This document shows, piece by piece, positions 24,034 to 59,774 of a DNA stretch of 64,000 nucleotides. The notes beneath the pieces were generated by a model. That model saw only the letters and a list, made by a program, of their open reading frames with translations. It was not told the origin of the DNA and made no database searches. The stretch is from a bacterium (GTDB lineage: Bacteria; Arandabacterota; Arandabacteria; Arandabacterales; Arandabacteraceae): NCBI GenBank assembly GCA_029933125.1, contig JAOZOU010000004.1:1-64000 (forward strand), given 5' to 3'. The first letter of the stretch is position 1. Every line of letters begins with the position of its first letter. Made by a program: the position numbers and the translations under genes.

Positions 24034-24762
24034 ATGGAAAGACGCATTCTCTATTTGAATCATCTTGAGCTTGAGGCACTTGTACCGCAGAAGATTTCAA
24101 CAGTTCTTGTACCTGTTGGTACCGTGGAGGCTCACGGAATAATCCCTCTTGGCACAGATGTTATTATACCTGAGGCAATTGTCGATAGGATTGCTGAACG
24201 CATAGAGGCGCTTGTTGCGCCAACTGTTGCTTACGGAATAACGAGGGGGCTCTTTGGATACCCGGGCACACTCCATATCCGTGCAGGGACCTTCAAAGCG
24301 TATATGCGTGATGTTCTTGAATCGCTTGCTCGCATAGGTTTCAAACATCTGATCGTCATCAACGGTCACGGTGGCCAGACTGACGAGCTGAAGAGTGTTC
24401 TCTTTGAGGTGAGCAGGGACAGGAATGTTAAGACTTTGCTCATTGATTGGTGGTATGATATGGATGAATTGAGGAAGCGCACACTTGCAAGGGAGAGTGG
24501 GCATGCTGCAGCTGATGAAACAGCTGCCGTGATGGCGATCGATCCAGATCTTGTGAAGAAGGATCTCTATGACGATGAGATGATGGTGAGGTATTCGAAG
24601 CAGTTTGCCGCATATCCATTTCCTGGGACAATCATAACCTATTCCGAAGGTGACGCTTCTCTCAATCTCGACAAAAACGCTTGCGAGGCTTTCTTCAACG
24701 CTGTCATCGACCAAGTAACCCACCTCATCACCCGCACCCTCACCCTCTGGGGTCGGAGCTAA
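24034..24762 (+). CDS. Creatininase-family amidohydrolase whose stop codon lies in a repeat
   Basis: A 242-residue metal-dependent amidohydrolase fold: 'VPVGTVEAHGIIPLGTD' (E, H and D ligands), 'GYPGTLHI', 'VINGHGGQ' and 'ESGHAAADETAAVM'. Relatives include creatininase, mycofactocin-maturation MftE and FAPy deformylase, so the substrate is open. The last codons (LWGRS and TAA) fall in the first copy of the 24749 repeat, meaning the original C-terminus was replaced when the repeat arrived. It starts 1 nt after the M16 gene, so it is co-transcribed. Confidence 0.88.
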   Translation: MERRILYLNHLELEALVPQKISTVLVPVGTVEAHGIIPLGTDVIIPEAIVDRIAERIEALVAPTVAYGITRGLFGYPGTLHIRAGTFKAYMRDVLESLARIGFKHLIVINGHGGQTDELKSVLFEVSRDRNVKTLLIDWWYDMDELRKRTLARESGHAAADETAAVMAIDPDLVKKDLYDDEMMVRYSKQFAAYPFPGTIITYSEGDASLNLDKNACEAFFNAVIDQVTHLITRTLTLWGRS

Positions 24763-24800
24763 AAATCTGCATCCTGGGGGTCGGAGCTAAAAATCTGCAT
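24749..24800 (+). repeat. Left repeat: two direct copies of a GGGTCGGAGCTAAAAATCTGCAT unit
   Basis: Two copies about 28 bp apart (GGGGTCGGAGC at 24749 and 24777). The unit GGGGTCGGAGCTAAAAA is the exact inverse of the unit repeated four times at 25061-25190, so the 24.8-25.06 kb segment is bounded by inverted repeats. Repeats of this style are known around REP-type or RAYT-type mobile elements, but no transposase is present here. Confidence 0.85.
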
Positions 24801-24811
24801 TTGAGAGCAAT

Positions 24812-24827
24812 TGGCACAAAATTTGCT
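24812..24827 (+). promoter_or_regulatory. Sigma-54-type -24/-12 promoter
   Basis: TGGCAC, five bases, TTGCT: an exact match to the sigma-54 consensus, with GG at 24813 and GC at 24825 (12-bp offset, as required). It is inside the inverted-repeat element and points at the hairpin-rich 24838-25065 segment. No rpoN or enhancer-binding protein gene is in the window. Confidence 0.5.
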
Positions 24828-24837
24828 TAAGCACTTT

Positions 24838-25065
24838 CGGTGAGGACGATGCGTCCGAAGCAACTTCATCAGGGAGTGCCAAAGACGCTGATTTTTCAGC
24901 GATTACACGGATCTCGTTCGAAGGATCTTCTGCTGGTTGTTGCGATAGGTACTCAGCGGAATCCACGCTTCACGCTCGTGCAGCTGGAACACTGTGGTCG
25001 AGCTCGTCGCACCCCTTCAGATTGTCCATTTTAGTGGATCTCATAGCACTGAAGTGCGGTTTTTT
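24838..25065 (+). ncRNA. Candidate structured RNA from the sigma-54-type promoter
   Basis: From the predicted start near 24838 the strand can form a GGACG-ATG-CGTCC hairpin (24844-24856), a CGCTGA-TTTT-TCAGCG hairpin (24886-24901), and a final GCAC-TGAA-GTGC hairpin followed by GGTTTTTT (25046-25065), which resembles an intrinsic terminator. A 61-codon frame from ATG 24849 also exists (basic, no known family), but its start codon sits in the loop of the first hairpin. I favour a non-coding RNA; a small protein is the alternative. Confidence 0.35.
25046..25065 (+). terminator. Possible terminator at the end of the repeat-bounded element
   Basis: Short GCAC/GTGC stem (25046-25057) with a TGAA loop, then GG and six T residues. 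The stem is only 4-5 bp, so it is a weak candidate, but its T-run is also the start of the right repeat. Confidence 0.35.
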
Positions 25066-25190
25066 AGCTCCGACCCCGAAATGGGGTGATTTGAAGATTT
25101 TTAGCTCCGACCCCGAAATGGGGTGATTTGAAGATTTTTAGCTCCGACCCCAAAGTGGGCGATTTGGAGATTTTTAGCTCCGACACCGGA
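25061..25190 (+). repeat. Right repeat array: four units of 37 bp, TTTTTAGCTCCGACCCC type
   Basis: Units begin at 25061, 25098, 25135 and 25171 (periods 37, 37, 36). Each has TTTTTAGCTCCGACCCC, then a CCCC-n5-GGGG hairpin and GATTTGRAGA; the last copy has decayed. They are the inverse of the two copies at 24749-24800. The array ends about 90 bp before the yifB ATG. Confidence 0.88.
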
Positions 25191-25279
25191 ATGAGGGGGG
25201 TTGATTGGGGGGAGGTTTGGTGTTAGAATGGCAATGCTCGCCTGTGACCTCCCATGTCAAGCAGTGGGGAGGTGACTTT

Positions 25280-26785
25280 ATGCTCGCCAAGGTTGTGACC
25301 TCTGCAGTCATTGGCATAGATGGCTTGCCTGTCGAAGTGGAGGTTGATGTCTCAAACGGCCTCCCGACTTTTACGATTGTGGGTCTCCCAAGCACAGAGG
25401 TTAAAGAGAGCCGCGATCGTGTTCGATCTGCCCTGAGGAATAGCGGTTATGAGTTCCCCACCAAGCGTATAGTTGTCAATCTCGCCCCAGCGAATATTAG
25501 AAAGGAGGGCGCAAGTTTCGATCTGCCGATTGCTGTTGGACTGGCGGCTGCAAGCGGGCAGATCCCATCAGATACAACCTTAAAGTACTTGCTTCTCGGC
25601 GAACTTTCCCTCGATGGAGATCTAAAAGCCATAAGGGGAGCACTCTCGATGGTTTCAGTTGTTGAACGAGGCAACCTTGATGGCACCCTCCTACCCGTAG
25701 AGAATGCAAAAGAGGCAGCGATAAGTAGTAAGTATCCAGTTTATGGAGTTAGGTCACTTGCCGAGGTACTTGCCATCCTCTCAGGAAACCTCAAGCCCCG
25801 ACAGGTGAATGTGACCCTTGAAGAGATTGCCTTGAGGTCAACTGCGGTTGACTTCGCTGAGGTTCGTGGCCAGGAGCATGCCAAAAGAGCTGTCGAGGTT
25901 GCAGCTGCAGGTGGCCACAACATCCTAATGACAGGACCACCTGGAAGTGGCAAAACTATGATCGCACGACGCATTCCAACAATCTTACCTCCAATGTCAG
26001 TGGAAGAAGCTATTGAAACTACCAAGATCTATTCAGTCACGGGACTTCTCAAGGCAGATGGGCTGATGCTTGAGCGGCCGTTTAGAAGTCCGCACCATAC
26101 GGTGAGTGATGTCGCCCTCATCGGCGGGGGAAGAATTCCTCATCCTGGAGAGGTGAGTTTAGCGAATCACGGAGTTCTGTTTCTTGATGAATTCACGGAA
26201 TTCAGGCAGAGTGCTCTTGAAGCCCTGAGACAGCCACTCGAGGATAGAGTTGTGACGATAAGTCGCTCCCATTCCAGCCTCACTTTTCCGGCAAACTTCA
26301 CGCTCGTTGCCGCCATGAATCCCTGCCCATGTGGCAATTACACCGATCCTGTGAAAGAGTGTAGATGCAGCCCACGTGAGATTGAGCGCTATCGACGGAA
26401 GATATCTGAACCAATTCTCGATCGCATTGATATCCACATCGATGTTCCGCCTGTCCGCTACAATGAGCTTTCTGGATCACTATCAGGTGAGGATTCAGAA
26501 GCCATCAGGGAGCGGGTCGTAAGAGCGAGGATCATTCAGAAACAACGTTTCAACAAAACACCCGATGTTTTCACGAATGCCCAGATGTCGCCATCGCTGA
26601 TTCGCAAGTTTTGTCGCCTTGACAGGGATGCCTCTGAACTCTTGCGAGCTGCATGCAAGCGCCTTGCCTTAAGCGCACGCTCCTATGCCAAAACATTGAA
26701 AGTTGCGCGCACAATTGCCGACCTCGAGGGTTCCTGTGAGATAAGGGCTCATCACATCGCCGAAGCCATCCAATACCGCCACTAA
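25280..26785 (+). CDS. YifB-family Mg-chelatase-like AAA+ ATPase (ComM-type)
   Basis: A 501-residue protein with an N-terminal Lon-protease-like domain ('MLAKVVTSAVIGIDG', 'TIVGLPSTEVKESRDRVRSA'), then AAA+ with Walker A 'GPPGSGKTM' , Walker B 'VLFLDEFTEF', 'RSPHHTVSDVALIGGG' and the cysteine segment 'NPCPCGNYTDPVKECRC'. ComM in Vibrio/Haemophilus is a branch-migration helicase that helps integrate incoming DNA. ATG 25280 is set by GGGGAGGTGA at 25266-25275; the open frame starts earlier but without support. Confidence 0.94.
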   Translation: MLAKVVTSAVIGIDGLPVEVEVDVSNGLPTFTIVGLPSTEVKESRDRVRSALRNSGYEFPTKRIVVNLAPANIRKEGASFDLPIAVGLAAASGQIPSDTTLKYLLLGELSLDGDLKAIRGALSMVSVVERGNLDGTLLPVENAKEAAISSKYPVYGVRSLAEVLAILSGNLKPRQVNVTLEEIALRSTAVDFAEVRGQEHAKRAVEVAAAGGHNILMTGPPGSGKTMIARRIPTILPPMSVEEAIETTKIYSVTGLLKADGLMLERPFRSPHHTVSDVALIGGGRIPHPGEVSLANHGVLFLDEFTEFRQSALEALRQPLEDRVVTISRSHSSLTFPANFTLVAAMNPCPCGNYTDPVKECRCSPREIERYRRKISEPILDRIDIHIDVPPVRYNELSGSLSGEDSEAIRERVVRARIIQKQRFNKTPDVFTNAQMSPSLIRKFCRLDRDASELLRAACKRLALSARSYAKTLKVARTIADLEGSCEIRAHHIAEAIQYRH

Positions 26786-32977: not shown

Positions 32978-33014
32978 TTGCCCATCTCTTTGTCCTCGAA
33001 GAGTTGCATGGGCG

Positions 33015-33185
33015 TCTCCCGGCAGGTCTCCTGACTTATGGCTCAAGCGCCCTGGTTCACCTTCCAGGCGAGGCAGCCCGTGGTCTGCCGAACCAGTGCT
33101 CGCCAATCACAGTGGCGGGACCGTGGAGGAATCACACCTCACTTCCCTTTTGAGTCCTTGCGGACACCAAGAGACTACTATTCAG
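33015..33185 (-). promoter_or_regulatory. Cobalamin riboswitch
   Basis: Read on the - strand it shows the conserved pieces in order: GGTGTCCGC, AAAAGGGAA, GGTGTGATTCCTCC, ACGGTCCCGCCACTGTGA (the B12 box) and GAGCCATAAGTCAGGAGACC at the 3' end. It lies about 120 nt upstream of the BtuB-type gene and should reduce its expression when adenosyl- or methylcobalamin is plentiful. Confidence 0.93.
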
Positions 33186-33197
33186 TTTTGCAACCGA

Positions 33198-59393: not shown

Positions 59394-59479
59394 GGAGGGA
59401 TGGCCGAGCGGTCTAAGGCGGCGGTCTTGAAAACCGTTGACCGAAAGGTCCGTGGGTTCGAATCCTACTCCCTCCGCCA
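59394..59479 (+). tRNA. tRNA-Ser(UGA), CCA encoded
   Basis: Acceptor GGAGGGA pairs with TCCCTCC; the anticodon arm GCGGT-CTTGAAA-ACCGT gives anticodon TGA; a variable arm (ACCGAAAGGT) and the T-loop GTTCGAATC are present. The CCA end is encoded at 59477-59479. Confidence 0.95.
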
Positions 59480-59497
59480 ACTGGTGTTTTACCGCAC

Positions 59498-59591
<94 letters not shown>

Positions 59592-59623
59592 GTCATGTGG
59601 CTTGAGCACAACGGGGAGAGCAA

Positions 59624-59653
59624 GCAATTGAACTCAATATTGAGTTTGATTGC
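59624..59653 (+). other. 30-nt palindrome between tRNA-Ser(GCU) and tRNA-Arg
   Basis: GCAATTGAACTCAAT is followed directly by ATTGAGTTTGATTGC; as RNA it pairs over all 15 positions if two G-U wobbles are allowed. No T-run follows. It may guide tRNA processing, block read-through, or bind a protein. Confidence 0.6.
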
Positions 59654-59700
59654 AAGCGTACATGCATAGAGATCACTATCGAGGATATGGAATTGGAGGT

Positions 59701-59774
59701 GCGCCTGTAGCTCAATTGGATAGAGCGCGTGGCTACGGACCACGAGGTTGCGGGTTCGAGTCCTGCCGGGCGCG
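59701..59774 (+). tRNA. tRNA-Arg(ACG), CCA not encoded
   Basis: Acceptor GCGCCTG pairs with CGGGCGC (one G-T); D-arm AGCTCAATTGGATAGAGC; anticodon arm CGTGG-CTACGGA-CCACG, anticodon ACG; T-loop GTTCGAGTC. After the discriminator G comes CTTTTCTTTT, so CCA must be added, unlike the two tRNA-Ser genes. Confidence 0.95.

Follow-up and report, generated by a model that had tools for sequence, protein, structure and literature searches.

Between a creatininase-family-like gene and a YifB/ComM-like gene, the window (the whole stretch of 64,000 nucleotides analysed here, from the genome G000) carries a cluster of short inverted repeats that enclose about 260 bp of DNA. The question raised by this locus is what kind of unit the cluster represents, since an earlier note had read it as a mobile or amplified element carrying its own regulated small RNA. 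Judged from its sequence, the element is best explained as a REPIN/TIR pair that belongs to a RAYT system and has degenerated and expanded in tandem. Its parts, and the genes on either side, are as follows.

24034–24762, plus strand: upstream creatininase-family-like gene, named by sequence reading, with neighbours conserved in the genomes G001, G004 and G002
24749–24765, plus strand: REP/TIR copy 1 (outer left), which gives the upstream creatininase-like gene its TAA stop codon
24777–24793, plus strand: REP/TIR copy 2 (inner left); the TCTGCA after it is the repeat's conserved inner end
24801–25060, plus strand: core, single-copy and without homologues; its ORF and hairpins lack support as functional features
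24812–24827, plus strand: predicted sigma-54-type promoter, TGGCAC-N5-TTGCT, exactly 35 bp past the start of REP copy 2
25061–25077, minus strand: inverse REP/TIR copy 3, whose T-run makes up the bulk of an apparent terminator tail
25098–25114, minus strand: inverse REP/TIR copy 4, part of a tandem array with a 37-bp period whose junctions carry CCCC/GGGG hairpins
25135–25151, minus strand: inverse REP/TIR copy 5
25171–25187, minus strand: inverse REP/TIR copy 6, with one mismatch (GGTGTCGGAGC)
25205–26785, plus strand: downstream YifB/ComM-like gene (Mg-chelatase-like ATPase), named by sequence reading, its true start probably ATG 25280

The two forward and four inverse copies of GGGGTCGGAGCTAAAAA described earlier were confirmed at 24749 and 24777 and at 25061, 25098, 25135 and 25171, the inverse copies on the right forming a tandem array with a period of 36–37 bp. 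The promoter-like site also stood: TGGCACAAAATTTGCT at 24812–24827 matches the sigma-54 consensus at 11 of 11 letters, with a predicted start near 24838, and is one of only two such perfect matches in the 64-kb window. Elsewhere in the window there is a cobalamin riboswitch (33004–33186, minus strand; 108.5 bits, well over the Rfam cut-off) and a cluster of three tRNA genes (59394–59774, plus strand).

The repeat belongs to a large family. With up to two mismatches allowed, there are 115 copies of the pattern GGGGTCGGAGC[T/C]AAAAA in G000 and 81 in its congener G001; the pattern is confined to these two among the 58 genomes searched, and gives no match when reversed. Copies are arranged as singles, as inverted pairs 30 to about 1100 bp apart, or as tandem arrays of 36–37 bp, in which hairpins pair the CCCC-rich junction with GGGG. 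The repeat type varies by genome, being GGAGCT..TCTGCA versus GGAGCC..TGTGCA in the two congeners, and related genera carry their own type in large numbers (GGGGTCAGAGCTC in G004 and G006, GGGGTCAGGTACC in G002 and G005).

Two further sequences adjoining repeats were also noted. A 206-bp sequence beside single repeats on contig C42 of G000 is 95% identical between L083 (412) and L084 (2444), and partly similar at L084 (382). At L106 and L135, the 346 bp adjoining an orthologous repeat share 90% identity across the two species, although identity of the yifB-like protein is only 77%. Rfam searches gave no match to either sequence.

The absence of a transposase, as claimed previously, holds locally, but a cognate enzyme is encoded elsewhere in the genome. 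G000 carries one full-length RAYT gene (291 aa; C42:57.1–58.2 kb), located between three forward and two inverse copies of the repeat. The sole full-length RAYT of G001, 59% identical to that of G000, likewise lies between forward and inverse repeats. Both proteins score over the NCBIfam cut-off for NF047646 (REP-associated tyrosine transposase), PF01797 is also over its cut-off, and the HxH motif is conserved. The RAYT C-terminus is HTH-like in all proteins, with HTH_23 detected in five of six at E-values of 5e-5 to 7e-3, all under Pfam's own cut-off. The genes neighbouring the RAYT seem alike in G000, G001, G004 and G005, as judged by reading the flanks, which is as expected of a vertically inherited, domesticated gene. 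The several full autonomous copies of an IS200/IS605 element were not found; there is one full-length RAYT per congener, and its neighbourhood is the same in several genera. From its association with the repeats, the full-length RAYT of G000 is likely to be the enzyme that copies them into the 3′ ends of genes. A short contig of G000 (L021, C148:1–1016) carries two Y1 transposase domains (83–439 and 539–886) in a 338-aa open frame; this may be either a protein with two domains in tandem or a quirk of the assembly.

The sigma-54-like site of the window recurs in the repeat family, and its presence there is not due to chance. The innermost repeat of each examined cluster was scored, a site being defined by at least 9 of the 11 consensus letters. 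In 17 of 64 innermost copies in G000 and 12 of 44 in G001, or about one quarter of inner repeat ends, a site lies 18 nt past the 17-nt repeat and so exactly 35 bp from its start, where 0.055 and 0.037 would be expected by chance at that offset (p ~1e-37 and 3e-27). None of the other offsets on that strand has a count above three. A strict repeat-promoter pattern found 9 matches in G000 and 10 in G001, 18 of the 19 with a distance of exactly 35 bp to the start of the repeat and the other with 36 bp, while the reversed control found none in either genome. Across 382 other genomes, the strict pairing gave 8 matches versus 4 in the control, which is chance level.

The sites show the pattern of sigma-54 promoters, TGGCAY-N5-TTGCW, with GG and GC 10 bp apart. 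An alignment logo displays the repeat, a low-information spacer, TGGCAYg, four further low-information positions and TTGCtaa; neither the G after TGGCAY nor the A after TTGCT was part of site selection. Across six pairs of orthologous repeats, agreement is 56 of 60 positions for the ten key promoter letters and 89 of 246 for the spacer, N5 and downstream letters together, although the pairs were selected for a G000 copy scoring at least 9, which biases the comparison toward the key bases. A further orthologous pair (L109/L120) is discordant, the G000 copy having lost its site or never had one. The rpoN gene, which the earlier note had marked as a check on its promoter, is present in the genome (C152:253878–254348, E 4e-63). 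No enhancer-binding site or activator was identified.

Among the repeat pairs of G000 and G001 that have no sigma-54 site (L085, L086, L095, L109, L121, L125, L128 and L131), the inner hexamers are often equal on both sides and differ between pairs (AATGCA, CGTGCA and AGTGCA among others), a pattern that suggests several repeat subtypes.

A site of the same type stands before the RAYT gene itself. It was found as CGGCATgattcTTGCT in G000 (10/11), TGGCACgaattTTGCT in G001 (11/11), TGGTATgagttATGCA in G004 (only 9/11), TGGTACgtctcTTGCA in G005 (10/11) and TGGCACgaaggTTGCA in G006 (11/11). In all five genomes, which represent four genera, the RAYT start codon lies 16–17 nt past the C of the -12 element, so that the predicted RAYT leader is just 4–5 nt long. 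Outside the window's genus the dispersed repeats are different: in G004, no site was seen in 38 inner flanks save the RAYT's own and one weak 9/11 match, and small samples from G002, G005 and G006 (about 6–7 dispersed repeats each in the latter two) contained none besides that of the RAYT itself.

Sigma-54 control of RAYTs in general was considered and rejected, since relatives in Pseudomonadota and other groups have no sigma-54-type site in the corresponding place. At seven of these other-lineage loci (L145, L149, L153, L174, L197, L206 and L210), a -35-like TTGACA or TTGAAT begins 10 nt into GGGTCAGGTC, and a -10-like hexamer follows after a 16–17 nt spacer, a short way ahead of where the match begins; some, but not all, of these score better than shuffled sequences. 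In such relatives the repeat may also serve as one half of the promoter of the gene, with a sigma-70-like -35 element inside it.

The fixed distance between site and repeat could also mean that the TGGCAY-N5-TTGCT block serves the repeat end in recognition or structure, for example as a subterminal transposase site, and only resembles a sigma-54 promoter. Its occurrence on both arms of the short pairs L103, L116, L120 and L133, which makes them near-palindromic units, would fit such a role. Against this, the 3′ end of the RAYT locus and most repeats are without the block, and the dispersed repeats examined in G004, G005 and G006 lack it, yet it is kept before the RAYT gene. In these three genomes the distance of the block to the start codon is constant and its distance to the repeat is variable. 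In addition, the letters that are conserved agree with the sigma-54 consensus, as does the preference for G after TGGCAY. A block with only a recognition or structural role is for these reasons an unlikely explanation.

Comparison of the creatininase-like/yifB-like gene gap across genomes places the window element in context. The same gap holds a 103-bp palindromic repeat pair in G001, with room just for two facing sigma-54 sites, a 46-bp GGGGTCAGGTACC pair in G002 and degenerate GGGGTC repeats in G004. Four genomes of three genera (G000, G001, G002 and G004) thus have REPINs or degenerate REP-like repeats, unlike between lineages, in one and the same gene gap, which is either a recurrent or a long-kept repeat site. 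Since the repeats in this gap differ across lineages, the window element is the site's local version: in G000 the left-hand repeat end bears the promoter, the repeats have expanded in tandem on either side, and single-copy DNA fills the middle.

The site in the window faces the yifB-like gene, which lies about 370 bp further downstream, and some other sites have a co-directional gene within 300 bp. The repeats might on this ground be thought to deliver sigma-54 promoters to host genes, as mobile promoters under host selection. However, the next genes are about evenly co-directional and antisense, which makes a general service as host promoters unlikely; four inverse repeats intervene in the window, and the sites face each other in some of the short palindromic pairs. 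This explanation is accordingly quite improbable.

The open frame of the core enclosed by the repeats exists mechanically, with 61 codons from ATG 24849 (64 from GTG 24840, 24840–25034), but no homologue of the core DNA was found, and the frame was rejected as a gene because its start is off the RAYT-type spacing of 16–17 nt and no relative of the core was found. Short inverted repeats are present where hairpins had been described, but folding of the core barely beats that of shuffled sequences (z -1.34; 19 of 200 shuffles as good). The proposed terminator, a stem plus six Ts, did not hold up: a terminator scan found no terminator-like site, with 0.7 expected, and five of the six Ts of the supposed tail belong to the inverse repeat TTTTTAGCTCCGACCCC.

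Several other identities for the core were considered. It has no relatives in its own genome beyond the single copy, in the congener genome or in a plasmid collection, and was therefore rejected as a repeated or plasmid-borne unit. A known RNA family was rejected, as Rfam gave just a chance P11 match far below the cut-off, and a decayed RAYT gene was rejected for want of a meaningful match to RAYT protein or DNA.

The suggestion of a mobile or amplified unit is thus correct for the arms, which are amplified (115 copies), and for the sigma-54-type promoter, which recurs with the repeat, but not for the 260-bp core, which is single-copy. What has been amplified is the repeat with its promoter rather than the core, and it was most likely mobilised by a RAYT encoded elsewhere. 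That the unit is instead a mobile gene for a regulated small RNA, carried as the core between the inverted repeats, agrees with the promoter, the inverted repeats within the core, the T-run and the presence of rpoN, but is highly improbable for a single-copy core that has no homologue, terminator-like site, Rfam family or fold beyond that z-score, and most of which is missing from the congener element at the same place.

As a repeat-and-promoter unit mobilised by a RAYT, the element can be compared with known systems. TIRtrons, or TIRYTs, are GGGGWSAS inverted repeats around Y1 transposases, the repeats occurring as singles, dimers and clusters (De Nocera et al. 2013, PMC3733652), and TIRYTs largely belong to TnpA-Y1 subclass 2.1, with a C-terminal HTH (Bac_DnaA_C, HTH_23 or HTH_28) (PMC6006769). 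The present system shares with them a Y1 transposase of about 280–290 aa and inverted GGGGTC repeats near the ends, the C-terminal region of the transposase looks HTH-like, though weakly, and its repeats are likewise found elsewhere in the genome as singles, dimers and clusters. The exact motif GGGGTCAG surrounds the RAYT of G004, G005 and G006 and is dispersed in G002. In contrast, the motif of the window's genus is GGGGTCGG, one letter off GGGGWSAS, and the repeats of this genus reach about 80–115 copies and include a sigma-54-type promoter, a feature not found in the accounts of TIR repeats consulted. The TIRYT/TIRtron type is the best fit for the RAYT system, but as the HTH is weak and the repeat of the window's genus departs from the motif by one letter, membership is no more than probable.

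Features of REPINs and their RAYTs (PMC3116915, PMC8049555) are also evident, namely a transposase gene present in one copy, whose chromosomal neighbourhood is shared by several genera, short pairs of inverted repeats at the 3′ ends of genes, many such pairs per one cognate transposase gene, and a repeat type specific to each transposase. The repeat is not a GTAG REP, however: these have a palindrome preceded by a GTAG/GGAG tetranucleotide, whereas the repeat has no GTAG-tagged palindrome, and a promoter lies inside the unit. An idea put forward by Bertels and Rainey, with REPINs as promoters and RAYTs as regulators, is cited as speculation in PMC8049555. Mobile promoters, as presented there from Matus-Garcia et al. 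2012, are similar in being short dispersed sequences that include a promoter; here, the sequence is tied to a transposase family and to sigma-54, and downstream genes are not consistently co-directional. No description of sigma-54 promoters in the repeats of REP transposases was found in the open-access literature, which is not proof of their absence.

It is quite probable that the repeat was mobilised carrying the predicted sigma-54 promoter of the RAYT gene. Transcription of this gene in the lineage would be driven by a sigma-54 (-24/-12) promoter placed 16–17 nt ahead of its start codon, and in the simplest history this promoter would be an old property of the gene. Only in the window's genus would the promoter have been captured into the repeat end, in the order repeat, 18 nt, promoter. 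With the promoter part of the repeat end, copying of the 5′ end of the RAYT locus would have scattered inward-pointing sigma-54 promoters along with the repeats. The window copy would then have kept the promoter, with unrelated single-copy DNA in place of the RAYT gene.

These results touch on what activates domesticated RAYT/TIRYT transposases and on the reasons for the persistence of their repeats. A more tentative and rather doubtful extension is that the repeat-plus-sigma-54 units form a genome-wide co-regulated set, transcribed together once the activator of the RAYT is on, and that this transcription lets the RAYT act, either by opening the repeats as single strands or through short RNAs. 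If so, amplification of the repeats would be coupled to a sigma-54 signal. The conserved predicted sigma-54 promoter before the RAYT gene in four genera suggests that expression of the transposase is probably kept tightly off until a signal arrives. Capture of this promoter by the repeats of one genus would provide a concrete instance in which a domesticated transposase has spread a regulated promoter.
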